NCBI RefSeq assembly: GCF_001953875.1
Contig: NZ_MQUR01000002.1
Span: forward strand, 74,158 to 138,157
Source: Streptomyces amritsarensis
Lineage (GTDB): Bacteria > Actinomycetota > Actinomycetes > Streptomycetales > Streptomycetaceae
Direction: 5' to 3'
DNA length: 64,000 bases
Part shown: one piece after another, positions 1,164-22,943 of the stretch
Numbering within the stretch: position 1 is the stretch's first letter
How the letters are laid out: each line of letters opens with the position of its first letter
Notes under the pieces: generated by a model
The model's database searches: none
Told to the model about the DNA's origin: nothing
The model's input: only the letters and a program-made list of their open reading frames with translations
Program-made: the position numbers and the translations under genes

Positions 1164-1871
1164 TCATGCGCTGTCCCTCTCCCCCGAGGCCCGCATGCCC
1201 CTGGCACGGGCGGCCTCGGACCCCGTGTCGGAGCCGAAGAAGTCGAGGACCTCGAGAGCGAGGCCCGGCTGGGAGGCTGAGGCCAGTACGCCTCCGCCGA
1301 ATGTCGAGCTGATGGCGGTGTCACCCGGCAGCGGTCCGGCGATGACGACGCCCGGCAGGTCCATCAGCTCGCTGTGCTGCTGAAATGCCAAGTCGGCCTG
1401 GCCGGAGGACAGCAGGCTGCCGACCGGCACGCCCGGCGGGGCCTGGACAAGCCGGCCGGCGAGCGCGTCGGCGAGACCCAGTCGGCCGATCAGGTCGAGC
1501 AGGGCCGTCCCGCTCGGACCGGTGGAGTAGGCGATCTTCTTCGCGGACCGCAGAACGGCCCGCAGGTCGCAGTCCGAGTCGAGCACCGGAACCGGTGATC
1601 CCGCCGGCACGGCGGCCACGACCTGGGAGGTCCACAGCGGCCGCGCCGTGCCTGCCAGGAGGTAGCCCTCCTCCTCCAGCGCGGTCAACGCTCCGTCAGC
1701 GAGCACGAGCAGGTCGGCCTCGGCGCCCTCGCGCACCCGCCGTGCGATGTCGACCCCGCCGGCGGCCTCGAAAAGCACGGGAAACCCGTGCACGAGCCGG
1801 ACCTGCTGGGACAGCTCGGCGAGCAGGGGCCGTGTCGCCATCGAAGACAGCCCGGAGATCACTCTTTTCAC
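1164..1871 (-). CDS. ModA-like substrate-binding-domain protein without signal peptide
   Basis: 235 residues with the outline of the molybdate/sulfate-type periplasmic binding fold: an early SGLSSMATRPLLAEL segment, a central LVLADGALTALEEEG stretch and a YSTGPSG loop. There is no signal peptide, lipobox or membrane segment, so the protein should be cytosolic, unlike a transporter binding protein, and no permease or ATPase gene is next to it. The GTG start follows an AGGAGG ribosome site about five bases upstream. It is transcribed divergently from the IclR regulator of the protocatechuate genes, 75 bases apart, which ties it to that regulon. Its role is unknown: a cytosolic sensor, an enzyme on a binding-protein fold, or an orphan. 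Confidence 0.8.
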   Translation of the reverse strand: MKRVISGLSSMATRPLLAELSQQVRLVHGFPVLFEAAGGVDIARRVREGAEADLLVLADGALTALEEEGYLLAGTARPLWTSQVVAAVPAGSPVPVLDSDCDLRAVLRSAKKIAYSTGPSGTALLDLIGRLGLADALAGRLVQAPPGVPVGSLLSSGQADLAFQQHSELMDLPGVVIAGPLPGDTAISSTFGGGVLASASQPGLALEVLDFFGSDTGSEAARARGMRASGERDSA

Positions 1872-1946: not shown

Positions 1947-2714
1947 GTGAGCACAACCCGGAGCACAGCGGCTGGAAAAGTCCTCGACGTCCTCGCGGCC
2001 TTCGACCGCGAGCACCCGTCGCAGACGCTGTCGCAGATCGCCCAGCGCACCGGCCTGGCCCTGAGCACCACGCACAGGGTGGTCGCCGAGCTGGCGGCGT
2101 GGGGAGCGCTGGAGCGCGGGGAGGACGGGTCGTGGCACGTCGGGTTGAGGCTCTGGGAAATCGCCTCGGGATGCCCGCGCACCCAGATCCTGCGTGATGT
2201 GGCGCTGCCTTTCATGCAGGACCTCTACGAGGCGACCCACGAGAACATCCAACTCGCGGTGCGCGAGGGCACGGAGCTGGTGTTCGTCGAGCGGATCGCC
2301 GGGCACCGCTCGGTGGAGCTGGTGACGATGGTGGGAGCCCGTTTCCCGATCGGCTCCACCGGGATGGGGCGGGTACTGCTGGCCCACGCGCCGCCGGACA
2401 TCCAGGAGGAGGTCCTCGGATCGCCGCTGCGGGCCTGGACCCCGCACACCGTCACCGATCCGAGGACTCTGCGCGCGCAGCTGGACCGTATCCGTCGGGA
2501 ACAGGTCTTCGTCAGCGATCGGCAGCTCTCGCAGAGCACCGTCGCGGTGTCCGCGCCCGTGCGGATCGGCCGGAACGGGCCTGTCAGTGCCGCTCTGGGG
2601 ATCGTGATCACGGCACGGGGGGCGAGCCGCGCGCGCGGACTGCGCGAGCCGCTCCTGAGGGCTGCGCACGGGATCTCCGATGGGCTCGGCCGGCGTACCC
2701 GCCCCACTCCCTGA
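1947..2714 (+). CDS. IclR family transcriptional regulator
   Basis: 255 residues. An N-terminal winged helix (LSQIAQRTGLALSTTHRVVAEL) is followed by the IclR effector domain, recognisable in GAF-like blocks such as FVERIAGHRSVELVT, GRVLLAHAP and VSAPVRI. The GTG at 1947 is chosen because the IclR N-terminus (STTRSTAAGKVLDVL) begins there. No ribosome site precedes it, so it may be read from a leaderless message. IclR proteins often activate aromatic-acid operons such as pobA and pca. This one sits 104 bases upstream of pobA in the same direction and divergently from the binding-protein-like gene, so it is the likely regulator of the protocatechuate 4,5-cleavage operon, probably sensing 4-hydroxybenzoate or protocatechuate. 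Confidence 0.92.
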   Translation: MSTTRSTAAGKVLDVLAAFDREHPSQTLSQIAQRTGLALSTTHRVVAELAAWGALERGEDGSWHVGLRLWEIASGCPRTQILRDVALPFMQDLYEATHENIQLAVREGTELVFVERIAGHRSVELVTMVGARFPIGSTGMGRVLLAHAPPDIQEEVLGSPLRAWTPHTVTDPRTLRAQLDRIRREQVFVSDRQLSQSTVAVSAPVRIGRNGPVSAALGIVITARGASRARGLREPLLRAAHGISDGLGRRTRPTP

Positions 2715-2773
2715 GATCCGAGCGGGCTTCCGCCTGACGGAAACGCCGGAGACCGGGTACGGCCCTGGGTGTC

Positions 2774-2797
2774 AACGTTCGACGTGCCCGGAACGTT
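2774..2797. promoter_or_regulatory. Candidate IclR operator before pobA
   Basis: Inverted repeat AACGTTC - 10 bases - GAACGTT, about 20 bases before the pobA start and just downstream of the iclR gene. Position and symmetry fit a regulator binding site; the assignment to the neighbouring IclR protein is inference. Confidence 0.4.
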
Positions 2798-2818: not shown

Positions 2819-4030
2819 ATGGCCGACGCCGTCGTCGACACCGTTGCCTCGGTTCCCGTCGCAGTCATCGGCGCCGGCCCGGCCGGCCTGATGCTCGCTC
2901 ACCGGCTGTCGCGGGCCGGAGTCGACACGATCGTGGTCGACACCCGCACCCGGCGTGAGATCGAGACGACACACCGGGCCGGCATCCTGGAGGCCGACGC
3001 GGCCCGAGACCTGGTCGAGACCGGCGTCAGTGACCGGATCCTGCGCGAGGGCCACGAACACGAGGGCACCGAGCTGCGGTTCGGCGGCCGGGCTCACCGG
3101 ATCCACTTCAAGGCGCTGGTCGGCGAGTCGGTGTGGCTCTACCCGCAGACCGACGTGTTCACCGACCTGGCCGACGCACGGGACCGCGACGGCGGCACGG
3201 TCCACTTCGGGGTGAAGGGCACCGAGGTCCTCGACATCACCACCGGCACTCCGCGGGTCCGGTACACCGCGGCCGACGGATCCCGGCACGAGGTGCGCGC
3301 GCAGTACGTGGTCGGTGCGGACGGGTCCCGCAGCATGTGCCGCAACCTGGTCCCCGAGGACCGGCGGGTGCGGTACGGCAAGGAGTACCCCTTCGCGTGG
3401 TTCGGCATCATGGCCGAGGCACCGCCGAGCGCGCCCGAGCTGGTCTACGCCCACTCCGGGCACGGCTTCGCGCTGATCAGCCAGCGGACCGAGACCGTAC
3501 AGCGGATGTACTTCCAGTGCTCACCCGGCGAGTCCGTCGACGCCTGGCCGGACGACCGCATCTGGGAGACGCTCCAGGCCCGGGTGGCCGGCGAGGACGG
3601 CTTCCGTCTCAAGGAGGGCCCCATCCTGGACAAGTCGGTGCTGCGTTTCCGCTCGTTCGTGCAGGAGCCGATGCGCTGGGGCTCGATGGTGCTCGCCGGA
3701 GACGCCGCACACACCGTGCCGCCGACCGGCGCCCGCGGACTCAATCTCGCACTGCACGACGTGAAGGTCCTGGCCGACATCCTCCTGCGGGCGCTCGGCA
3801 CCGAGGGCGAGGCCGCGCTGGAGGACTACCAGCCGCGCGCGCTGCAACGCATCTGGCGGGCGCAGAACTTCTCCCATTGGATGACCCGGCTGCTGCACAC
3901 CCCGCCCGGCGGCACCCCGTTCGACCTGCGGCGCCAACTCGGTGAACTCGACAACGTGGTGGGCACGCCCGCCGGCCGCACCTATCTCGCAGTGCAGTAC
4001 ACGGGCTGGCCCGTCGGCTCCCAGGCCTGA
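2819..4030 (+). CDS. pobA: 4-hydroxybenzoate 3-monooxygenase (FAD)
   Basis: 403 residues, the usual length for PobA. Converts 4-hydroxybenzoate to protocatechuate using NAD(P)H and O2. The FAD-binding Rossmann motif is at G18-x-G20-x-x-G23, the substrate/FAD segment R53-AGILE matches the PobA RAG(V/I)LE signature, and the second FAD motif GDAAHTVPPTGARGLNLA starts at about residue 294. ATG with AGGAG five bases upstream. It is the first gene of the + strand run ending at 9016, with the intergenic gaps after it short or nil. It feeds protocatechuate into the 4,5-cleavage enzymes directly downstream. Other aromatic-ring hydroxylases of this superfamily are possible, but motif details and context favour PobA. 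Confidence 0.92.
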   Translation: MADAVVDTVASVPVAVIGAGPAGLMLAHRLSRAGVDTIVVDTRTRREIETTHRAGILEADAARDLVETGVSDRILREGHEHEGTELRFGGRAHRIHFKALVGESVWLYPQTDVFTDLADARDRDGGTVHFGVKGTEVLDITTGTPRVRYTAADGSRHEVRAQYVVGADGSRSMCRNLVPEDRRVRYGKEYPFAWFGIMAEAPPSAPELVYAHSGHGFALISQRTETVQRMYFQCSPGESVDAWPDDRIWETLQARVAGEDGFRLKEGPILDKSVLRFRSFVQEPMRWGSMVLAGDAAHTVPPTGARGLNLALHDVKVLADILLRALGTEGEAALEDYQPRALQRIWRAQNFSHWMTRLLHTPPGGTPFDLRRQLGELDNVVGTPAGRTYLAVQYTGWPVGSQA

Positions 4031-4055
4031 CCCCGAAGACCCCAGGAGACAACGC

Positions 4056-5081
4056 ATGATCATCGACTGTCACGGTCATTTCACCACCGCGCCCGCGCAG
4101 TTGGCCCGGTGGCGTGACCGGCAGATCGCGGCGATCGGCTCCCCCGCGCACGCGCCCGATCCCGACGACCTCGTCATCACCGACGACGAACTGCGCGAGG
4201 CCATCGAGAGCAACCAGCTGCGCCTCATGGACGAGCGGGGCATCGACCTGACGCTCTTCTCCCCGCGGGCCAGTTTCATGGCCCACCACATCGGCGACTT
4301 CGAGGTCTCCGCGACGTGGGCGCGGATCTGCAACGATCTGGTCCACCGCGTCAGCACGCTCCACCCCGACCGCTTCGCGATGGGTGCCATGCTGCCGCAG
4401 TCGCCGGGCGTCGACCCGGCCACCTGCCTGCCCGAGCTGCGCCGCGCGGTCGAGGAACTCGGCGCGGTATCGGTCAACCTCAATCCCGATCCGTCGGGCG
4501 GCAAGTGGACCGCGCCGCCGCTGACCGACCGCAGCTGGTACCCGCTCTACGAGGCGATGGCCGAGTACGACGTCCCCGCGATGATCCACGTCAGCACCTC
4601 GTGCAACCCGGCCTTCCACACGACGGGTGCCCACTACCTGAACGCGGACACCACGGCGTTCATGCAGCTGGTCCAGGGGGATCTGTTCGCCGACTTCCCG
4701 TCGCTGCGGTTCGTGATCCCCCACGGCGGCGGCGCGGTGCCCTACCACTGGGGCCGGTTCCGCGGGCTGGCGATGGCGCTGGGTCGGCCGGACCCCGAGT
4801 CGCTGCTGGACAACGTCTTCTTCGACACCTGCGTGTACCACCAGCCCGGCATCGACCTGCTCACGCAGGTCGTCCCCAGCCGGTCCGTGCTGTTCGCCAG
4901 CGAGATGATCGGCGCCGTCCGCGGCGTCGACCCGCACACCGGCCACCACTTCGACGACACGAAGCGGTACGTCGAGGCCACCGCGAACCTCACCCACGGG
5001 GAACGGGCCGCCGTCTACTCCGGCAACGCCCTGCGCGTCCACCCCCGCCTCGCCGCCCGGCTCACCGCCGCCGGCCACTGA
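4056..5081 (+). CDS. ligJ: 4-oxalomesaconate hydratase, LigJ type
   Basis: 341-residue amidohydrolase-superfamily protein of the COG2159 branch. The metal site begins with H6-G-H8 (DCHGHF) and continues with conserved blocks HVSTSCNP, VIPHGGG and FASEMIGAVRG. LigJ enzymes add water to the tautomer of 4-oxalomesaconate to give 4-carboxy-4-hydroxy-2-oxoadipate. AGGAG lies seven bases before the ATG. The order pobA-ligJ-ligK-ligI-ligAB-ligC and the specific FASEMIGAVRGVDP block distinguish it from the related decarboxylases of the same superfamily. No LigU/GalD-type tautomerase, which supplies its substrate in Sphingobium, is encoded in the window. Confidence 0.9.
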   Translation: MIIDCHGHFTTAPAQLARWRDRQIAAIGSPAHAPDPDDLVITDDELREAIESNQLRLMDERGIDLTLFSPRASFMAHHIGDFEVSATWARICNDLVHRVSTLHPDRFAMGAMLPQSPGVDPATCLPELRRAVEELGAVSVNLNPDPSGGKWTAPPLTDRSWYPLYEAMAEYDVPAMIHVSTSCNPAFHTTGAHYLNADTTAFMQLVQGDLFADFPSLRFVIPHGGGAVPYHWGRFRGLAMALGRPDPESLLDNVFFDTCVYHQPGIDLLTQVVPSRSVLFASEMIGAVRGVDPHTGHHFDDTKRYVEATANLTHGERAAVYSGNALRVHPRLAARLTAAGH

Positions 5082-5097
5082 CCCAGGAGAAGGACAC

Positions 5098-5787
5098 ATG
5101 GAACACACCCGGCTCGGTGTCGTCCACACCGCGATCACCCGCGCCGACCCGAAGGACGTCGCCGCACTGTCGGCGTTCGGGGTGGCGACCATCCACGAGG
5201 CGATGGGCCGGGTGGGTCTGATGCGCCCGTACCTGCGCCCCGTCTACACCCGGGCCCGGCTCTGCGGCACGGCGGTGACCGTGCTGCTGCAGCCCGGCGA
5301 CAACTGGATGCTCCACGTCGCCGCCGAGCAGATCGAGGAGGGCGACGTGGTGGTCGCGGCCTGCACGACGCAGAGCGAGGACGGATTCTTCGGCGAACTG
5401 CTCGCCACCTCGTTCCGCGCCCGCGGCGGCCAGGGCCTGGTCATCGACGGAGGCGTGCGCGACGTGTCCGAACTGGAGGAGATGGACTTCCCGGTCTTCG
5501 CCCGTGCGGTCAGCGCCAAGGGCACCGTCAAGGCCACCCTCGGTTCGGTCAACGTGCCGGTGGTCTGTGCCAACGCCCTGGTCAGGCCGGGCGATGTCGT
5601 CGTGGCGGACCGCGACGGCGTCGTGGTGGTGCCGCGCGAGCGGGCCGCCGAGGTCGCCGAGGCGGCCGCCCGGCGTGAGGCCGGCGAGGAGAGCAAGCGG
5701 GTGCGGTTCCGCGCGGGCGAGCTCGGCCTGGACATGTACGCCATGCGCGGCCCGCTGGCCGAGCTCGGCCTGTGCTACGAGGACTGA
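5098..5787 (+). CDS. ligK: 4-carboxy-4-hydroxy-2-oxoadipate aldolase
   Basis: 229-residue RraA-fold class II aldolase. Splits 4-carboxy-4-hydroxy-2-oxoadipate to pyruvate and oxaloacetate, the last step of the protocatechuate 4,5-cleavage pathway; some family members also decarboxylate oxaloacetate. The metal/substrate loop DGGVRD is at residues 117-122, and the LigK/ProA-type segments LQPGDNWMLH and CANALVRPGDVVVADRDGVVVVP are present. These separate it from plain RraA regulators of RNase E, which lack the GDNWM block. AGGAGAAGG precedes the ATG. Seventeen bases separate it from ligJ and it abuts ligI. Confidence 0.9.
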   Translation: MEHTRLGVVHTAITRADPKDVAALSAFGVATIHEAMGRVGLMRPYLRPVYTRARLCGTAVTVLLQPGDNWMLHVAAEQIEEGDVVVAACTTQSEDGFFGELLATSFRARGGQGLVIDGGVRDVSELEEMDFPVFARAVSAKGTVKATLGSVNVPVVCANALVRPGDVVVADRDGVVVVPRERAAEVAEAAARREAGEESKRVRFRAGELGLDMYAMRGPLAELGLCYED

Positions 5788-5789
5788 CG

Positions 5790-6710
5790 ATGACGACGAG
5801 CTTCGAGAAGACCCCCGGCTGGCTGGACTGGTACGCAGGCCCCAGCCGGCCGCGGTTCCAGATGCCCGAGGGGGCCGTCGACGCGCACTGCCACGTGTTC
5901 GGCCCGAAAGACGCGTTTCCCTTCGCGCCCGAACGGAAGTACACCCCGTGCGACGCGTCCAAGGACCAGCTCTTCGAGCTGCGCGACCACCTGGGCTTCA
6001 CCCGCAACGTCGTGGTGCAGGCGACCTGTCACGGCGCCGACAACAGCGCCATGGCTGATGCGCTGCGGTCCTCGGGGGGACTGGCCCGGGGCGTGGCGAC
6101 ACTGCGGCCGGACGTCTCCGACGCCGAGCTGCGGGAGCTGCACGAGGCCGGGGTGCGCGGTGTGCGGTTCAACTTCGTCAAGCGGCTCGTCGACGCGGCG
6201 CCGCGGCAGGACCTGCGGGACATCGCCGAGCGGATCGCCCCCTACGGGTGGCACGTCGTCGTCTACTTCGAGGCGGCCGACCTCGTCGGCCTGCGCGACT
6301 TCCTGCTGTCGATACCGGTTCCGCTCGTCATCGACCACATGGGTCGGCCCGATGTCACCAAGGACCCGTACGGCCCGGAATTCGGGGCGTTCCTGGACTT
6401 CGTGCGGGCCAGGCCGGACATCTGGTGCAAGGTGACCTGCCCGGAGCGGCTGTCCGTGAGCGGCCCGCCGGCCCTCGACGGCGAGCAGTCGGCGTACCGC
6501 GACGTCGTCCCGTTCGCCCGCCGCGTGGTCGAGGAGTTCCCCGACCGGGTGCTGTGGGGCACGGACTGGCCGCACCCGAACCTCGCCACCCACATGCCCG
6601 ACGACGGTCTGCTCGTCGACTTCATCCCGGGCATCGCGCCGACGCCGGAGCTGCGGCAGCGGCTCCTCGTCGACAACCCGATGCGCCTGTACTGGCCGGA
6701 AGCCGGCTGA
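5790..6710 (+). CDS. ligI: 2-pyrone-4,6-dicarboxylate lactonase
   Basis: 306 residues, amidohydrolase fold. Opens 2-pyrone-4,6-dicarboxylate to 4-oxalomesaconate. Visible residues are H33-C-H35 in VDAHCHVFGP, the IDHMGRPD block and the catalytic aspartate in GTDWPHPN; LigI acts without a metal although it keeps the superfamily histidines. The ATG at 5790, two bases after the ligK stop, fits the LigI start better than an in-frame ATG inside ligK at 5772. Tight spacing indicates translation coupled to ligK. Confidence 0.92.
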   Translation: MTTSFEKTPGWLDWYAGPSRPRFQMPEGAVDAHCHVFGPKDAFPFAPERKYTPCDASKDQLFELRDHLGFTRNVVVQATCHGADNSAMADALRSSGGLARGVATLRPDVSDAELRELHEAGVRGVRFNFVKRLVDAAPRQDLRDIAERIAPYGWHVVVYFEAADLVGLRDFLLSIPVPLVIDHMGRPDVTKDPYGPEFGAFLDFVRARPDIWCKVTCPERLSVSGPPALDGEQSAYRDVVPFARRVVEEFPDRVLWGTDWPHPNLATHMPDDGLLVDFIPGIAPTPELRQRLLVDNPMRLYWPEAG

Positions 6711-6735
6711 CCCGTCTCACGATCGGAGCCCGACC

Positions 6736-8046
6736 TTGTCACTGGACAAGACCTACAAACTGGTGCCGGGGACCACCGTCTTCGACGCCGAGCAGTCCGC
6801 CAGGGGCTACCACCTCAACCAGTTCTGCATGTCGCTGATGACGGCGGAGAACCGCGAGAGCTACCTCGCCGACGAGCGCGCCTACCTGGACGCGTGGCCG
6901 CTGCGGGAGGAGCAGAAGCAGGCGCTGCTCGACCGCGACCTCAACGCCGCGATGGACGAGGGCGGCAACATCTACTTCCTCGCCAAGTGGGGCGCGACGC
7001 TGGGGCTCTCGTTCCAGCAGATGGCCGGTTCGATGACCGGTATGACCGAGGAGGAGTACCGCGCAATGATGGTCGGCGGCGGCCGCTCCGTCGAGGGCAA
7101 CCGCATCGATCACGCCGTCCTGGAGGCGGCGCACGCCGATCCGGCGCCCCCGGCGGAGCACGCCGTGATCACCGGTGCGGTCTTCACCTCGCACGTGCCG
7201 GCGATCGGCGCGGCGATGGACCACGACAAGACCCGTGAGCCCTACTGGCAGCCGCTCTTCGAGGGGTACGAGTTCTCCAGGAGGTGGGAGCAGGAGAACC
7301 TCCCGGACGTGATCTTCCTGGTCTACAACGACCACGCGTCGGCCTTCGACCTGTCCTTGATCCCGACGTTCGTGCTCGGCACCGGCGCGGCCTACGCCAC
7401 CGCCGACGAGGGGTACGGCCCCCGCCCGGTCCCCGGCATCGAGGGCGACCCCGACCTGGCCGCTCACATCGCGCACTCGCTGATCAGGGACGACTTCGAC
7501 CTCACGCTCGCCAACGAGATGACCGTCGACCACGGCCTGACCGTCCCGCTGTCGCTGATGTTCGGAAACGTCGAGAAGTGGCCGTGCAAGGTGATCCCGT
7601 TCCACGTCAACGTGGTGCAGTATCCGGTGCCCTCGGGCGCCCGGTGCTTCAAGCTCGGCCAGGCACTGCGGAAGGCGATCGAGTCGTACGACAGGCCGCT
7701 GAAGGTCCAGGTGTGGGGCACCGGCGGCATGAGCCACCAGTTGCAGGGCCCGCGCGCCGGTCTGATCAACCGCGAATGGGACCAGGCCTTCCTCGACCGG
7801 CTGGTCGGGGATCCGCACGGACTGTCGCAGGTGCCGCACCTGGAGTACGTCGACGAAGCCGGCTCGGAAGGCATCGAGCTGGTCATGTGGTTGATAGCCC
7901 GCGGGGCGATGAGCGACGTCGACGGGTTCGGACGGGTCGAGGTCAAGCACCGCTTCTACCACGTGCCGGCGTCCAACACCGCCGTCGGCCACCTGATACT
8001 CGAAAACCACCCCCGGGCCCAGGAGCCCGCCGAAGGAGTCAACTGA
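6736..8046 (+). CDS. ligAB: Protocatechuate 4,5-dioxygenase, fused alpha and beta subunits
   Basis: 436 residues. Residues 1 to about 120 match the small LigA (alpha) subunit (HLNQFCMSLM, AMDEGGNIYFLAKWGA) and residues about 140-436 match the catalytic LigB (beta) subunit, an extradiol dioxygenase of the LigB fold. H153 in FTSHVPAIG and the histidine in VYNDHASAFDLSLIPTF are the expected iron ligands. Cleaves protocatechuate between C4 and C5 to 4-carboxy-2-hydroxymuconate semialdehyde. In Sphingobium the subunits are separate genes; here they are one chain, as recalled for some actinobacterial enzymes. Translation starts at TTG 6736, preceded by CGGAG. Two bases separate it from ligC. Confidence 0.93.
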   Translation: MSLDKTYKLVPGTTVFDAEQSARGYHLNQFCMSLMTAENRESYLADERAYLDAWPLREEQKQALLDRDLNAAMDEGGNIYFLAKWGATLGLSFQQMAGSMTGMTEEEYRAMMVGGGRSVEGNRIDHAVLEAAHADPAPPAEHAVITGAVFTSHVPAIGAAMDHDKTREPYWQPLFEGYEFSRRWEQENLPDVIFLVYNDHASAFDLSLIPTFVLGTGAAYATADEGYGPRPVPGIEGDPDLAAHIAHSLIRDDFDLTLANEMTVDHGLTVPLSLMFGNVEKWPCKVIPFHVNVVQYPVPSGARCFKLGQALRKAIESYDRPLKVQVWGTGGMSHQLQGPRAGLINREWDQAFLDRLVGDPHGLSQVPHLEYVDEAGSEGIELVMWLIARGAMSDVDGFGRVEVKHRFYHVPASNTAVGHLILENHPRAQEPAEGVN

Positions 8047-8047
8047 C

Positions 8048-9016
8048 ATGTCCGACGACCGAACCCTCCGGGTCGCCCTGGCCGGCGGCGGCGCCTTCGG
8101 CGCCAAGCACGCGGCCGCGCTCCAGCGGATCGAGGGCGTCGAGGTGGCCGCCGTCGTGAGCAGCACCCTCGAAAGCGCGCAGAAGTTCGCCGCGGAGCAG
8201 GGGGTCGGCCGCGCCGCGGCGTCCCTCGACGAGGTGCTGGCGATGGACGACGTCGACGCCGTCATTCTCGCCACCCCCACCCCGATGCACGCCGAGCAGA
8301 CGCTGGCCTGCCTCGACGCCGGCAAGCACGTCCAGGTCGAGATTCCCCTGGCGTCCTCCCTCGCCGACGCCGAGGCGTGCCTGGAGGCGCAGCAGCGCAC
8401 CGGGCTGGTCGCCATGGTGGGCCACACCCGGCGCTTCAACCCGAGTCATCAGTGGGTCCGGCGGCAGATCCAGGCCGGCGAGTACAACATCCAGCAGATG
8501 GACGTGCAGACGTACTTCTTCCGCCGCACGAACCTCAACGCGCTGGGCGCGCCGCGCTCGTGGACCGACCACCTCCTGTGGCACCACGCGGCACACACCG
8601 TGGATCTGTTCGCCTACCAGACCGGCTCCCCGATCGTGCAGGCCAACGCCCTCCAAGGCCCGATCCACCCCGAGCTCGGCATCGCGATGGACCTGTCGGT
8701 CCAGCTGCGCGCGGCGAACGGCGCCATCTGCACCCTGTCGCTGTCGTTCAACAACGACGGGCCGCTGGGCACGTTCTTCCGCTACATCGGCGACACCGGC
8801 ACCTACATCGCCCGCTACGACGACCTCGTCACCGGCAAGGACGAGCCGATCGACGTCAGCGGGGTCGACGTCTCGATGGACGGCATCGAGCTGCAGGACC
8901 GCGAGTTCGTCGCCGCCATCCGTGAGGGCCGCGAACCGAACTCCTCCATCGCCCAGGTCATGCCCTGCTACCGGACGCTGGCGGCCCTGGAGGAGCAGCT
9001 CACCGCCGCGGTCTGA
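8048..9016 (+). CDS. ligC: 4-carboxy-2-hydroxymuconate-6-semialdehyde dehydrogenase
   Basis: 322-residue Gfo/Idh/MocA-family oxidoreductase. An N-terminal NAD(P) Rossmann motif (ALAGGGAFGAKH) is followed by the substrate domain with the EIPLASSLADAEAC and GHTRRFNPSH blocks. LigC oxidises the hemiacetal form of the ring-cleavage product to 2-pyrone-4,6-dicarboxylate with NADP+. The family as a whole is broad, but its position as the gene after the dioxygenase and the LigC-like N-terminus support the assignment. It is the last gene of the operon; a long perfect palindrome follows its stop. Confidence 0.9.
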   Translation: MSDDRTLRVALAGGGAFGAKHAAALQRIEGVEVAAVVSSTLESAQKFAAEQGVGRAAASLDEVLAMDDVDAVILATPTPMHAEQTLACLDAGKHVQVEIPLASSLADAEACLEAQQRTGLVAMVGHTRRFNPSHQWVRRQIQAGEYNIQQMDVQTYFFRRTNLNALGAPRSWTDHLLWHHAAHTVDLFAYQTGSPIVQANALQGPIHPELGIAMDLSVQLRAANGAICTLSLSFNNDGPLGTFFRYIGDTGTYIARYDDLVTGKDEPIDVSGVDVSMDGIELQDREFVAAIREGREPNSSIAQVMPCYRTLAALEEQLTAAV

Positions 9017-9023
9017 CAGGTCA

Positions 9024-9071
9024 CACGAGACGAGCTCACCGTGCCGGCCGGCACGGTGAGCTCGTCTCGTG
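9024..9071. terminator. 48-base perfect palindrome between convergent operons
   Basis: Two 24-base arms (9024-9047 and 9048-9071) are exact reverse complements with no loop bases between them. The element separates the protocatechuate operon (+) from the hydroxycinnamate-type operon (-) and should work as a two-way terminator. It contains GAGCTC and GCCGGC cores. The length and perfection are unusual. Confidence 0.8.
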
Positions 9072-9112: not shown

Positions 9113-9574
9113 TCAGGCGTAGTGGCGGTAGACGGCGTGGGCGACGCACGCCGGCTTGTCGCTGCCCTCGACCTCGACGGTGAAGGTGATCGGCATCTGT
9201 ACGCCGTTGCCCTTGACCTCCTCCACCGTGCCGACGGCACCGTGGAGACGGATCTTCGCGCCGACCCGGACGGGGCTGGGGAAACGGACCTTGTCCAGGC
9301 CGTAGTTGACGCTCATCTTGGTGCCGGTGATGCTGAGCAGCTCGCCGAAGAGCGGGATGATCAGGGAGAGGGTGAGGTAGCCGTGGGCGATGGGGCCGCC
9401 GAAGGGCCCGTCCTTGGCCCTCTCCGGGTCGGTGTGGATCCACTGGTGGTCGTCGGTGGCGTCGGCGAAGGTGTTCACCCGGCCCTGGGTGATTTCGAGC
9501 CACTCGGTGCGGCCGAGGTCGGCTCCGCTGAGGGAGGTGAGTGCGTCGAGGCCGTCGGCGATGGCGATGGGCAT
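9113..9574 (-). CDS. MaoC-type (R)-hydratase/dehydratase
   Basis: 153-residue hot-dog-fold protein of the MaoC family. The hydratase signature is complete: FADATDDHQWIHTDPERA with catalytic Asp/His, followed by GPIAHGYLTLSLI. These enzymes hydrate trans-2-enoyl-CoA thioesters. It is the last gene of a - strand run with a CoA ligase, an amidohydrolase and an SDR. In that setting it is the candidate hydratase of hydroxycinnamoyl-CoA, the step CouM performs in Rhodococcus. The ATG at 9574 is the first codon of a clear MaoC N-terminus; 68 bases separate it from the ligase gene. Confidence 0.9.
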   Translation of the reverse strand: MPIAIADGLDALTSLSGADLGRTEWLEITQGRVNTFADATDDHQWIHTDPERAKDGPFGGPIAHGYLTLSLIIPLFGELLSITGTKMSVNYGLDKVRFPSPVRVGAKIRLHGAVGTVEEVKGNGVQMPITFTVEVEGSDKPACVAHAVYRHYA

Positions 9575-9642
9575 GAGGAAACCTTTCGGTGGTGCGGGCG
9601 ACGCCGAGCGCGCCCTGGGGGAACGTCGTGCTCGAACGCCGG

Positions 9643-11199
9643 TCACGGCTGGGGGCATTCGGCGGGACCGGCGGCGAAGATGTCGCGGACGGCGGACTTG
9701 ACGATCTTTCCGGAGGCCGTGCGGGGCAGGCGGCCCGTGAGGACGACCGACTTCGGGATCTTGTACTTGGCGAGCCTGCCCCGGAGGTGGTCGAGGACGT
9801 CGTCCTCGCCGGCGCGGGCCTCGGGCTTGAGGACGACGACGGCGCGGCCGACCTCGCCCCAGACCGGGTCGGGGACGCCGATGACCGCGCATTCGGCGAC
9901 GGCGGGATGGTCGAGGAGTGCGTCCTCGACCTCGGCCGGATAGACGTTCTCGCCGCCGGAGACGTACATGTCCTTGACCCGGTCGACGAGGTAGGCGTAG
10001 CCGTCCTCGTCGCTCCGGGCGATGTCGCCGGTGCGCAGCCAGTCGCCGTCGGTGAAGACAGCCGCGGTGTCCCCGGGCCGGTTCCAGTAGCCGGTCATGA
10101 CGTGGGGGCCCTGGACGAGGACCTCGCCGCGCTCGCCCGGTCCGGCCTCGCTGCCGTCGGGCCGGACGATGCGGGTATCGGTGAAGAAGTGCGGCACGCC
10201 TGCGGAGCCGGCCTTGGACGCGGTCTGTTCCCGGTCGAGGAAGAGGACGCCTGGGGACGCCTCGGTCATGCCGTAGCCCTGGCTGAAGGCGAGACCGCGG
10301 TCGATGTACGCGGCGATGGTGCGGGCGGGCACGGGCGCGCCGCCGCAGTTGAGGGTGCGCAGGCTGGAGAGGTCGGTGGTTCCCCACCGCGGCCGGACGG
10401 CCATGGCGTCGTACATCGTGGGGACGCCGAACAGGTACGTCACGCGCAGGTCCTCGACCAGTTCCAGGACGCGGTCGGCGTCGAAGGCGGCGAGCAGGAC
10501 CACCCGGCCGCCCTTGAGGAGGGTGGGCAGGCAGGTCATGTTGAGGGCGCCGGCGTGGAACAGCGGAGCCACGACCAGGGTGACCTCGTCGGCCGTGAGG
10601 TCGGTGTCGACGAGGACGTTGACGCTGTTCCAGGTGATGTTGGCGTGGGAGAGGACGGCTCCCTTGGGGCGGCCTGTGGTCCCGGAGGTGTACATGATCA
10701 TGCACGGGTCCTCGGGCGCCACGGACACGTCCAGGAGCTCGCCCGCGTGCGCCCCGGCCGGCAACTCCTCGTATGAGAGGGCGCCCTCGCCGGGGCCGTC
10801 GGGCCCTTCGAGTGCGATCCGGTGGCGCACCCCGGCCTCGTCGGCGGCGGTGCGTGCGGCTTCTGCGCGCTCGGGGGCGTGGATGAGGACGGTGCTGCCC
10901 GAGTCGGAGAGGTGGTACGCCAGTTCCGGTGCCGTCAGCCGGGTGTTGAGCGGGACGAAGACCGCGCCGAGCGCTCCGGCGGCGAACAGGGTTTCCAGGA
11001 AGGCCGGGTGGTTGGGACCCAGGTAGGCGATCCGGTCACCGCTCTCGACGCCCAGTGCGCGCAGGCCGTGGGCGAGGCGCACGACCCGCCCGTGCAGCTC
11101 GCGGTAGGTCCAGGTGCGGCCGTCGTGGACGACGGCGGTCCGGTCGGGTGCTTTGCGGGCCCGGCGCGTCGGCCAGGAGCCGATGCCTTGGTTCAGCAC
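9643..11199 (-). CDS. Acyl/aryl-CoA synthetase, probable hydroxycinnamate:CoA ligase
   Basis: 518-residue ANL-superfamily adenylating enzyme. The ATP loop is YTSGTTGRPKG, followed by GYGMTEASPG, the hinge motif WLRTGDIARSDEDGY and the C-terminal catalytic lysine in RTASGKIVKS. It activates a carboxylic acid to its CoA thioester via an acyl-AMP. The GTG at 11199 has AAGGAAA just upstream, which reaches into the stop of the preceding amidohydrolase gene, so the two are coupled. Set next to a MaoC hydratase, SDR, amidohydrolase and MarR regulator, it corresponds to CouL (p-hydroxycinnamoyl-CoA synthetase); long-chain or other aryl acids remain possible substrates. Confidence 0.88.
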   Translation of the reverse strand: MLNQGIGSWPTRRARKAPDRTAVVHDGRTWTYRELHGRVVRLAHGLRALGVESGDRIAYLGPNHPAFLETLFAAGALGAVFVPLNTRLTAPELAYHLSDSGSTVLIHAPERAEAARTAADEAGVRHRIALEGPDGPGEGALSYEELPAGAHAGELLDVSVAPEDPCMIMYTSGTTGRPKGAVLSHANITWNSVNVLVDTDLTADEVTLVVAPLFHAGALNMTCLPTLLKGGRVVLLAAFDADRVLELVEDLRVTYLFGVPTMYDAMAVRPRWGTTDLSSLRTLNCGGAPVPARTIAAYIDRGLAFSQGYGMTEASPGVLFLDREQTASKAGSAGVPHFFTDTRIVRPDGSEAGPGERGEVLVQGPHVMTGYWNRPGDTAAVFTDGDWLRTGDIARSDEDGYAYLVDRVKDMYVSGGENVYPAEVEDALLDHPAVAECAVIGVPDPVWGEVGRAVVVLKPEARAGEDDVLDHLRGRLAKYKIPKSVVLTGRLPRTASGKIVKSAVRDIFAAGPAECPQP

Positions 11200-11210
11200 G
11201 AGCGTTTCCT

Positions 11211-12110
11211 TCAGTCGGTGGACAGGCCGAGCAGGCGGGCGGCGTTCTCCTTGAGGATCTTCGGCCGGACCTCGGGCTTGATGTCGAGTGCGGCGAAGTC
11301 GGCCAGCCACCGGTCAGGGGTGATGACCGGATAGTCGGAGCCGAAGAGGACCTTGTCCTGGAGCAGGGTGTTCGCATAGCGCACGAGCTGCGGGGGGAAG
11401 TACTTCGGCGACCAGCCGGACAGGTCGATGTAGACGTGCGGCTTGTGGGTGGCGACCGCGAGCGCCTCGTCCTGCCAGGGGAAGGACGGGTGGGCGAGGA
11501 CGATCCGCAGTTCGGGGAAGTCGACGGCGACGTCGTCGACCAGCATGGGGTCGGAGTACTTCAGCCGGATGCCGCCGCCGCCCGGGACGCCGGCGCCGAT
11601 GCCGGTCTGGCCGGTGTGGAAGAGGGCCGGTACGCCGAGTTCCTCGATGGCCTCGTACAGCGGGTAGGCGAGGCGGTCATCGGGCGAGAAGGCCTGGATG
11701 CTGGGGTGGAACTTGAAACCGCGCACCCCGTGCTCCTCCACCAGGCGCCGGGCCTCGCGCACGCCCGCGCGGCCCTTGTGCGGGTCGACGCTCGCGAAGG
11801 GGATCAGCACGTCGGCGTGGGCGGCGCAGCTTTCGGCGATCTCCTCGTTGGCGATCCGCGGGTGGCCGGTGGCGTGTTCGGCGTCGACGGTGAACACCAC
11901 CGCCGCCATGCGGCGTTCGCGGTAGTGGTCGGCCATCTCCTCGATGGTGGGCTGCCGGTGGCCGTGGGCCTTGAAGTACTTCTCGGAGGCACCGAACAGC
12001 TCGGGGCTCAGCGCCCCGTGGCCGTCCTTGGAGACCTCGGCGTGGGTGTGCACGTCGATGGCGGTCAGCGCGTCGAGGTCGGGCGCGAGCCCTTGGGAGC
12101 GGTCGGCCAT
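11211..12110 (-). CDS. COG2159 amidohydrolase, CouO-like
   Basis: 299 residues, metal-dependent amidohydrolase TIM barrel. IDVHTHAE carries the first H-x-H pair (residues 20-22), FKFHPSIQ and VLAHPSFPWQ the following metal histidines, and FGSDYPVITPDRW the late aspartate. The superfamily branch contains decarboxylases, hydratases and C-C hydrolases acting on aromatic or keto acids. In hydroxycinnamate clusters a protein of this class (CouO) releases the shortened aromatic acid from the beta-keto thioester or acid. It follows the SDR gene by one base and leads into the CoA ligase gene. The exact reaction is inferred from context only. Confidence 0.82.
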   Translation of the reverse strand: MADRSQGLAPDLDALTAIDVHTHAEVSKDGHGALSPELFGASEKYFKAHGHRQPTIEEMADHYRERRMAAVVFTVDAEHATGHPRIANEEIAESCAAHADVLIPFASVDPHKGRAGVREARRLVEEHGVRGFKFHPSIQAFSPDDRLAYPLYEAIEELGVPALFHTGQTGIGAGVPGGGGIRLKYSDPMLVDDVAVDFPELRIVLAHPSFPWQDEALAVATHKPHVYIDLSGWSPKYFPPQLVRYANTLLQDKVLFGSDYPVITPDRWLADFAALDIKPEVRPKILKENAARLLGLSTD

Positions 12111-12111
12111 C

Positions 12112-13023
12112 TCAGGCCTCCGGGGCCTGCGGCGCGGGGATGCCGTAGGTCTCGGGCTCGGCGCCGACGCCGTCCGGCCATGCGGCGGCGATGGCGTCGC
12201 CGCTCCAGCCCCCGTCGGCGAAGGCGACCGCCTTCTCCTTGGGGTGGGCCCACAGGGCGAGGCGGTCTCCGCCGATGCCGATGGCCTGTCCGGTCACGCC
12301 GTCGGAGTCGTCGGAGGCCAGGAAGGTGATCAGGCCGGCGACGTCCTCGACGGTGCCGAGGCCCTCGTCCTTGCGCAGCCAGTCGGGCAGCGGCTCGCCG
12401 GTGCGCTCGGACTCCTCGATGAGGGGGGCGAAAGCCGGGATGGTCCGGGTCATCTCCGTGGCGGCGACCGGTACGACGGCGTTGACGGTGATACCGGCGC
12501 GGCCCAGTTCCATCGCCCAGGTGCGGGCCATGGCGACGATGCCGGCCTTGGCGGCGGCGTAGTTGGTCTGGCCGAAGTTGCCGCGCTGGCCGGCGGGCGA
12601 GGAGATCAGGACCAGTCGGCCGCCGGTGCCCTGCTCGCGCATGCGGATGGCGGCGGCGCGGGCACAGGTGAACGTGCCGCGCAGGTGGACCCGTACGACG
12701 TCGTCGAAGTCCTCGTCGGTCATCTTCCACAGCACGCGGTCGCGCAGGATGCCGGCGTTGGTGACGAGCACGTCCAGGCGCCCGAACTCCTCCACCGCCG
12801 CGTCCACGAGCCGCTGGGCCGCCTCGCTGTCGCCGACGGCCGCGGCCACGCCGGTCGCCGTGCCTCCGCGGGACGTGATCGAGGCGACGGCGGCGTCCAC
12901 CGTGTCCTTGTCGACGTCGTTGACCACGACGGCGGCGCCCGCGGCGGCGAGGGCCTGAGCGTATGCCAGTCCGAGGCCGCGTCCGCTGCCGGTGACGACG
13001 GCGACCTTGCCCTGAGGATCCAT
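12112..13023 (-). CDS. Short-chain dehydrogenase, probable 3-hydroxyacyl-CoA dehydrogenase
   Basis: 303-residue SDR. Cofactor motif VVTGSGRGLGLAYA, NDVDKDT (an Asp favouring NAD), VTNAGILRD, the catalytic Ser in LISSPAG and YAAAK. A tail of about 50 residues beyond the core (LWAHPKEKAVAFADGGWSGD) resembles the peroxisomal multifunctional-enzyme type of hydroxyacyl-CoA dehydrogenase. First gene of the - strand catabolic run; it would oxidise the 3-hydroxyacyl-CoA made by the MaoC hydratase (CouN step). ATG at 13023; the ribosome site lies inside a short GAGAGG-CCTCTC inverted repeat (13024-13037) that could occlude it. Confidence 0.88.
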   Translation of the reverse strand: MDPQGKVAVVTGSGRGLGLAYAQALAAAGAAVVVNDVDKDTVDAAVASITSRGGTATGVAAAVGDSEAAQRLVDAAVEEFGRLDVLVTNAGILRDRVLWKMTDEDFDDVVRVHLRGTFTCARAAAIRMREQGTGGRLVLISSPAGQRGNFGQTNYAAAKAGIVAMARTWAMELGRAGITVNAVVPVAATEMTRTIPAFAPLIEESERTGEPLPDWLRKDEGLGTVEDVAGLITFLASDDSDGVTGQAIGIGGDRLALWAHPKEKAVAFADGGWSGDAIAAAWPDGVGAEPETYGIPAPQAPEA

Positions 13024-13102
13024 GAGAGGTGCCTCTCGAAAGTGATGGAAGGGGTGAAAGGGGTGAAAGGGGAATGCCGAAAGCGCCGACCGAGCCGGGA
13101 TC

Positions 13103-13151
13103 GACAGGAATCCTGATGAATGCAGTCTGGGCAATCAGCAGGATTCCTGTC
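13103..13151. promoter_or_regulatory. Twin palindromic operator in the SDR/MarR divergent promoter
   Basis: A 17-base inverted repeat with one mismatch (13103-13119 and 13135-13151). Each arm contains its own 11-base palindrome, CAGGAATCCTG at 13105-13115 and CAGGATTCCTG at 13139-13149, centres 34 bases apart. A TTGACA -35 hexamer for the - strand operon (13149-13154) overlaps the right copy. This is the expected layout for a MarR repressor controlling the divergent catabolic genes; binding by the adjacent MarR protein is inferred. Confidence 0.65.
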
Positions 13152-13246
13152 AATGCCCTAGGGTGGGCCGACGCCGCGCCCCGCAGACATGCCACGGGGA
13201 GCGGTACGAACCGCCCCACGCGGGCCGTCACGACGGGAGGATGGAC

Positions 13247-13660
13247 GTGAGCACGTCACTGCTCTACCTGATCAAGAGAACGGAGCTTGCGGTGCGCGCC
13301 CGGCTCGACGAGCTGCTCAAGCCCGCCGGGATCACGGCGCTGCAGTACACCGCCCTGACGGTGCTGGAGCGGCACGACGGCATCTCCGCGGCGCAGCTCG
13401 CCCGCGACTCCTTCGTCACCGCCCAGTCGATGGCCGACATGGTCCGCGCACTGGAGAGCCGCGGCATGATCCGCCGCGAACCCAATCCGGCCAACCGCCG
13501 CGAACGGCTCATCCTGCTCGCCGGCCCCGGGCGGCGCCTGCTCGCCGAGTACGCGGAGCCGGCCCGCCGCATCGAGGAACGCATGACCGCCACCCTGAGC
13601 CCCGAGCAGACCGAGGCGTTCCGGCTGGCCCTGAACGAGTCCTGGCGGGCCCTGTCCTGA
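13247..13660 (+). CDS. MarR family regulator, CouR-like
   Basis: About 137 residues with the MarR winged-helix fold: LQYTALTVLERHDGISAAQLARDSFVTAQSMADMVRALESRGMI, then the wing REPNPANRRERLILL. The GGGAGG at 13235-13240 touches an ATG at 13241 but stands six bases from the GTG at 13247, so the GTG is preferred. It is divergent from the SDR-led catabolic operon, with a double palindrome in the shared 223-base promoter region. MarR proteins in hydroxycinnamate clusters (CouR) are repressors released by the hydroxycinnamoyl-CoA; that ligand is inferred here. Confidence 0.88.
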   Translation: MSTSLLYLIKRTELAVRARLDELLKPAGITALQYTALTVLERHDGISAAQLARDSFVTAQSMADMVRALESRGMIRREPNPANRRERLILLAGPGRRLLAEYAEPARRIEERMTATLSPEQTEAFRLALNESWRALS

Positions 13661-22850: not shown

Positions 22851-22869
22851 GACCTACGACTCTCTCGAG

Positions 22870-22943
<74 letters not shown>

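Follow-up and report, generated by a model that had tools for sequence, protein, structure and literature searches.

Gene content of the locus

We analysed a 64,000-nucleotide stretch of Streptomyces amritsarensis DNA (contig NZ_MQUR01000002.1, positions 74,158 to 138,157; hereafter the window) that carries what is very probably, judging from sequence, a 4-hydroxybenzoate and protocatechuate (PCA) degradation unit of Streptomycetaceae. The unit comprises six enzyme genes, all on the plus strand and separated from pobA to ligC by 25, 16, 2, 25 and 1 nt, an iclR gene directly upstream of pobA on the same strand, and a gene for a protein of the solute-binding-protein (SBP) type, divergent from iclR. 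The features are the following (genome, contig and locus numbers beginning with G, C and L are our own).

1164..1871, minus strand: gene for a ModA-fold (SBP_bac_11) protein, GTG start, divergent from iclR; PF13531 at 116.6 bits
1872..1946: divergent intergenic region of 75 bp; conserved GTCTGCGAGAC (GTCTGCGAAAC in the window) beside the iclR start, seen when 23 Streptomycetaceae sequences, that of the window among them, were aligned
1947..2714, plus strand: IclR-family regulator (PF01614, PF09339), start codon picked by eye
2728..2742: dyad TTCCGCCTGACGGAA, presumed IclR operator; single exact match in the genome, conserved in relatives
2774..2797: second inverted repeat AACGTTC-N10-GAACGTT, just 5′ of pobA; partly conserved in the alignment
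2819..4030, plus strand: pobA, predicted 4-hydroxybenzoate 3-monooxygenase; Pfam, NCBIfam and PDB matches
4056..5081, plus strand: ligJ, predicted 4-oxalomesaconate/2-keto-4-carboxy-3-hexenedioate (OMA/KCH) hydratase; Pfam and PDB matches
5098..5787, plus strand: ligK, predicted 4-carboxy-4-hydroxy-2-oxoadipate (CHA) aldolase/oxaloacetate decarboxylase; TIGR02798 over cut-off, PDB 3noj
5790..6710, plus strand: ligI, predicted 2-pyrone-4,6-dicarboxylate (PDC) hydrolase; PDB 4d8l
6736..8046, plus strand: fused ligAB, predicted PCA 4,5-dioxygenase, TTG start; Pfam, NCBIfam, PDB and motifs
8048..9016, plus strand: ligC, predicted 4-carboxy-2-hydroxymuconate semialdehyde (CHMS) dehydrogenase; PDB 9azo (PmdC)
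9024..9071: perfect inverted repeat with 24-base arms and no T run after it, probable terminator between the convergent ligC and MaoC genes

Assignment of the enzymes

The initial annotation had named six adjacent, IclR-linked enzymes (pobA, ligJ, ligK, ligI, fused ligAB and ligC) and let them cover the whole route from 4-hydroxybenzoate to pyruvate and oxaloacetate. Gene positions, names and the upstream IclR gene were all recovered. The Pfam domains fit the names (FAD_binding_3 in PobA, Amidohydro_2 in LigJ and LigI, RraA-like in LigK, LigA plus LigB in LigAB, OxRdtase_C in LigC), and the top solved-structure match of every protein in the PDB is its expected pathway enzyme. These are 8weq for PobA (E 1.5e-151), the OMA hydratase structures 2gwg and 6dxq for LigJ (1e-163 and 2e-141), 3noj for LigK (E 1.5e-70), PDC hydrolase 4d8l for LigI (E 1e-109), 1b4u chain B for LigAB (E 1.7e-114) and 9azo, PmdC, for LigC (E 4e-157; the sole match at E<=1e-20). 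Genes for the dioxygenase, CHMS dehydrogenase, PDC hydrolase, OMA hydratase and CHA aldolase of the PCA 4,5 gene set are present together in the window.

Among the NCBIfam models, LigK scores above TIGR02798 (383 bits, cut-off 304.5), PobA above PRK08243 (497 bits, cut-off 351) and LigAB above both TIGR02792 (alpha) and PRK13366 (beta). LigJ had no NCBIfam match, and LigI and LigC had only matches below cut-off, to other enzymes. Some results weigh against the assignment: PobA falls below TIGR02360, the strictest equivalog model (383 bits, cut-off 538.7), LigAB falls below the fused-protein model PRK13372 (737 bits, cut-off 837), and the operon is without a transporter gene.

In the proposed route, PobA would convert 4-hydroxybenzoate to PCA, and the fused LigAB would open the PCA ring at the 4,5 position to give CHMS. 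LigC would oxidise CHMS to PDC, and LigI would hydrolyse PDC to OMA. The SBP protein probably shifts the double bond of OMA in a 1,3-allylic isomerisation, as is thought for PmdU, LigJ would hydrate the isomerised product, and LigK would split CHA into pyruvate and oxaloacetate. The OMA isomerisation is the one of the seven reactions from 4-hydroxybenzoate that the six genes leave uncovered, and the claim of full coverage, which had left out the neighbouring gene at 1164-1871, stands for the other steps but not for this one.

Distribution and absence of pcaH

We searched 392 Streptomyces genomes for LigAB (E<=1e-30), the SBP protein (E<=1e-25) and pcaH (E<=1e-40). LigAB matches were found in 30 genomes, 15 of them with two-domain proteins (83-100% identity; 14 in one frame and G076 in two frames) and 15 with LigB only (52-56%). 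The SBP gene was present in exactly the 15 genomes with two-domain LigAB, although in G041 it lies on a contig other than that of LigAB. Streptomycetes had been said to use 3,4-cleavage normally, and pcaH was indeed present in 247 genomes, in 242 of them over the cut-off. None of the 15 LigAB carriers had pcaH, as opposed to 247 of the 377 other genomes (Fisher p 2e-7, uncorrected for common descent). A looser pcaH search gave matches in 12 of the 15 carriers, none exceeding 51 bits (cut-off 296).

A search of the genome for pcaGH had been suggested in the initial annotation. In the S. amritsarensis genome it returned two intradiol dioxygenase-family genes and no pcaGH over the cut-off, an outcome that favours the initial reading. 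The two genes lie on different contigs, each encodes a single protein that looks secreted by eye, and both are far below the pcaH cut-off. The muconate cycloisomerase family (PF02746) likewise had no match in this genome.

The wider sample of named loci consists of the best 80 of at least 570 relatives. The carriers in Streptomycetaceae belong to Streptomyces, Kitasatospora and Yinghuangia, and pcaH was found in none of the 12 that are named, at least one of which (L038) is also among the 392 genomes (as G321). Among other actinobacterial carriers, 2 of 14 had pcaH, one of them over the cut-off. All eight genes are present over more than 85% of their length in 23 of the 27 Streptomycetaceae loci; this count includes L134 despite its ligAB in two frames, and L038 and L125 are one genome. 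Reduced copies also occur: L042 is without iclR-pobA-ligJ, L048 without most of pobA, and L121 has a broken iclR and a broken SBP gene, with an intact SBP gene on another contig of G041. A phylum-wide draw gave matches in 4 of 396 genomes including this one, the other three being split or LigB-only.

The introduction of PMC8431788 describes actinobacteria as opening PCA predominantly by ortho cleavage. In the carriers, the PCA ring seems to be opened by meta cleavage alone. The initial annotation had raised the possibility of an overlooked actinobacterial lineage of the pathway, and the 15 Streptomyces genomes together with Kitasatospora and Yinghuangia confirm it: this is an overlooked, low-frequency lineage in Streptomycetaceae with meta cleavage instead of, not beside, the usual pcaGH route.

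A second LigB type (52-56% identity) occurs in 15 of the 392 Streptomyces genomes (loci L022-L036 and L135-L141), all 15 with pcaH, and had a separate LigA in all seven examined. In L137 it lies near a LigK-like gene and near two finds that stay below cut-offs, a muconolactone-isomerase-like frame and an oxygenase/reductase pair.

The IclR regulator and its presumed operator

The best model for the IclR protein was the PcaR/PcaU/PobR subfamily TIGR02431, at 137.6 bits and below its cut-off of 284.75. The 15-bp dyad TTCCGCCTGACGGAA in the iclR-pobA gap occurs just once as an exact match in the genome of 7.8 Mb. When one mismatch was tolerated, the search gave seven reports, which fall on five places (the exact one and four with one mismatch), and the reversed control pattern gave one. 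Searched for upstream of the operon in a slightly looser form, the dyad turned up in the window and in 25 of 27 other Streptomycetaceae loci. The two loci in which it was not found are L042, where iclR-pobA-ligJ are lacking, and L121, with its broken iclR region. The same looser form is present in the Intrasporangiaceae loci L049, L050 and L051 and was not found in L053, L060, L082, L099 and L111. The dyad at 2728-2742 is probably where IclR acts to control the unit, and such a regulator-operator pair could perhaps be used to sense PCA or 4-hydroxybenzoate.

The SBP protein and the isomerisation step

PF13531 is the sole Pfam match of the SBP protein, which does not match PF04303, the family of LigU/GalD and PrpF. 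The AlphaFold model (pLDDT, the predicted local distance difference score, 96.2) has a ModA-type fold (Z about 24, root-mean-square deviation 2.5 over about 220 residues), and ModA and a PBP2_YvgL-like protein are the closest solved folds. A periplasmic protein of the ModA type should carry an export signal, and this one does not: its GTG, the first start after a stop codon, comes 6 residues ahead of the first-strand motif. In many relatives, too, the only in-frame start precedes the first strand by 2-13 residues, while a few have earlier starts. With the only in-frame start adjoining the first strand, an export signal would have no space. Invariant in 37 sequences are S10, M11, G38-V40, S82, STGPSG 116-121, Q164, Q165 and E168.

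We consider an OMA isomerase of the PmdU type to be the most likely role of this protein and hold this with moderate confidence, by analogy with other pathway clusters. Of the 80 fetched loci, 42 hold a relative of it: 20 of the 26 actinobacterial ones and 22 of the 53 proteobacterial ones. No PF04303 protein was detected in the S. amritsarensis genome. The PCA 4,5 locus of Humibacillus, in which no SBP gene was found, has a PrpF-family gene (L050:5181-6293) between pobA and ligJ in its stead. The cluster of Comamonas testosteroni runs in the order SBP, major facilitator superfamily (MFS) transporter, LigJ, LigK, LigI, LigA, LigB and LigC homologues, which is the pmdUKEFDABC order. OMA isomerisation in Sphingobium SYK-6 is carried out by LigU, going by the title of a 2018 study of Hogancamp and Raushel. 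LigU belongs to the PrpF family. Aconitate isomerase is also reportedly a ModA-like protein (Yuhara 2015), which our literature searches did not confirm. In PMC12314914 (2025), pmdU is placed beside ligU and galD for OMA conversion; the literature search found no paper on PmdU itself.

Alternatively, the protein could sense a substrate or be a stray binder of molybdate, with OMA isomerising spontaneously, on LigJ or on another enzyme. We regard this explanation as the less likely one. It would agree with the closest solved folds and with the carriers and fetched loci in which the SBP gene was not found (see below), and a figure legend in PMC8431788 labels the corresponding gene of Pseudarthrobacter phenanthrenivorans Sphe3 'ABC-type molybdate transport system'. 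It would not agree with the start position, which leaves an export signal no space either in the window protein or in its relatives with a single start, nor with the annotated loci L003, L005 and L006, where no permease or ATPase of an ABC (ATP-binding cassette) transporter lies directly beside the SBP gene. The neighbours in the window are iclR and an open reading frame at 12-1103 that by eye does not look like a transporter part. The strict co-occurrence with LigAB in the same 15 Streptomyces genomes, the replacement by PrpF in Humibacillus and the PmdU position in Comamonas also speak against a sensor or stray protein.

Several observations weigh against the isomerase role. The SBP gene was not seen in 38 of the 80 loci fetched, several of them short contigs. 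PF04303 was absent in 5 of the 12 non-Streptomyces carriers searched and present in seven. Four of the five without it, L052, L054, L059 and L083, also show no SBP gene in the locus, so that some carriers of the pathway either do without both solutions or need no such enzyme. These four genomes slightly lower the odds of the broader scenario given below and raise those of a sensor or stray protein. Furthermore, C. testosteroni has the SBP gene together with a strong PF04303 protein elsewhere, and weak PF04303 matches of 20-62 bits occur in 7 of the 14 other Streptomyces carriers; these were counted as exceeding the cut-off of 27, in some cases only when neighbouring pieces were added. Finally, the suggested identity with PmdU draws on gene order rather than on a record under that name.

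A DUF1932 dehydrogenase encoded near ligK-ligI in several proteobacteria was considered as an alternative to the SBP protein and rejected, as L005, L062, L068 and L072 have both. TctC proteins are encoded between ligK and ligI in L066 and L092, and a 412-aa open frame in L093 had no Pfam match.

The broader scenario is that a ModA-fold protein without an export signal became a cytoplasmic 1,3-allylic isomerase for the PCA 4,5 pathway in two phyla, where it and the unrelated PrpF/LigU fold can stand in for each other, and that in Streptomycetaceae the unit took the place of the beta-ketoadipate route, controlled by an IclR operator of its own; we give this combination about an even chance. It would provide a testable enzymatic role for a gene labelled as molybdate transport.

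Substrate of the dioxygenase

LigAB is predicted to be a PCA 4,5-dioxygenase. Its F93 aligns with Phe103 of LigA, and the S413-N414 pair is present at the substrate end. The protein has the motifs SHVPA, NDHA, DHG and GMSH with H153, H200, H266, H334 and E381, corresponding to the SHxPA, NDHA, DHG, GxSH and Glu given for such dioxygenases in PMC8431788.

It is very unlikely that the enzyme acts mainly on gallate (or methylgallate) and that the unit is one for gallate catabolism. LigAB does match DesB structures and the gallate dioxygenase model PRK13367, DesB/GalA likewise combine LigA and LigB domains in one chain, and PcaA of Sphe3 converts gallate as well, according to PMC8431788. However, the PRK13367 score stays below the cut-off (357.7 bits, cut-off 412), the LigA-LigB order of the window protein is opposite to that of DesB/GalA, and the protein is closer to LigB of 1b4u (1.7e-114) than to DesB (2.7e-81). 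The substrate-end motif also differs, being PASNTA as in LigB where DesB has P-SMTA. The operon moreover holds ligC, ligI and pobA, unneeded for gallate from what is known of the pathway. On domain order, motifs and these three genes we rejected a gallate pathway.

Comparison with known systems

The pathway itself is already known. The pcm operon on plasmid pRE1 of Arthrobacter keyseri and the Sphe3 cluster on pASPHE302 have the same ligJ-K-I-fused AB-C order and include the SBP gene, as here. Unlike the window operon, they are plasmid-borne and have a LysR regulator, an aldo/keto reductase gene and no pobA in the stretch shown. The Comamonas pmd operon covers the same steps, with the SBP gene first in the C. 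testosteroni cluster, but has split LigA and LigB, an MFS gene and no iclR-pobA head. The lig genes of SYK-6 provide the same reactions, and LigAB, LigI and LigJ structures from this strain match the window proteins. In contrast to the window operon, the SYK-6 genes form several transcription units, as stated in the discussion of PMC8431788. PcaA of Sphe3 is shown in that paper to cleave PCA as a PCA 4,5-dioxygenase, and the ortho route exists in Sphe3 as well (PMC10815724, section 2.2). In the titles and abstract openings of the literature searched, no Streptomyces PCA 4,5 operon was described, which is no proof of its absence from print. What is new is a Streptomycetaceae operon variant with its own regulator, a presumed operator, a built-in pobA and no ortho route in the carriers examined.

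Descent and replicon

The initial annotation had described the operon as chromosomal, had suggested transfer as one possible origin and had proposed a phylogeny of LigAB. Our LigAB tree is a quick one of 101 rows with long outgroup branches; 11 of 112 rows were removed manually (short contigs and duplicates, together with L119 and the two copies of one G441 locus, some of which did not duplicate a kept row), and L134 is absent because of its broken frame. The 42 actinobacterial rows form one branch (SH-aLRT branch support 99) beside the proteobacterial ones, and inside it 26 Streptomycetaceae rows group with Tetrasphaera Ben110 (SH-aLRT 99). All 42 are fused, and so is a separate branch of 12 Comamonadaceae-type rows (L056, L059, L066, L070, L071, L076, L078, L083, L094, L101, L105 and L115). 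With two separate fused branches, LigA-LigB fusion or splitting happened more than once. In an rpoB tree of 30 hand-picked genomes (15 carriers, 10 with pcaH, 5 with neither), carriers appeared in three places and a single carrier clade was rejected (p-AU, approximately unbiased test, 7e-26). G012, inside the small clade of the S. amritsarensis genome, has neither LigAB nor pcaH. Transfer, in either direction, would fit the LigAB tree.

That one Streptomyces acquired the operon in a single recent event from a plasmid of the Arthrobacter type is hardly credible: the core gene order is shared, relatives carry the operon on large plasmids and its G+C content of 70.3% is toward the low end of the window (mean 72.7%, standard deviation 1.6, for stretches of operon size), but that value is within the window range (lowest 70.1%), LigAB is only 67-70% identical to the Arthrobacter proteins, the 26 Streptomycetaceae rows stand together, the regulator differs, and the dyad was not found in four Arthrobacter/Microbacterium-type loci tried.

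As to the replicon, a chromosomal location is seen in relatives such as G098, where the operon is on one 7.9-Mb contig, but the 177-kb contig of the window (C101) does not show it. In three named Streptomyces, a LigAB with 91.7% identity is encoded on records of plasmids 1.2-1.26 Mb long, and the one record examined is linear. A tRNA-Pro (ggg) gene at 22869-22943 of the window fits a chromosomal contig and is no proof of one.

Flanking genes

Facing the operon, positions 9113-13660 of the window hold genes for a MaoC hydratase, an AMP-dependent CoA ligase, an amidohydrolase and short-chain dehydrogenases/reductases, together with a MarR gene that is divergent from them. Of this set, four or five genes also adjoin the operon in L004, L043, L124, L127 and L128, and two in L037. 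Perhaps they form an aryl-acid feeder pathway.

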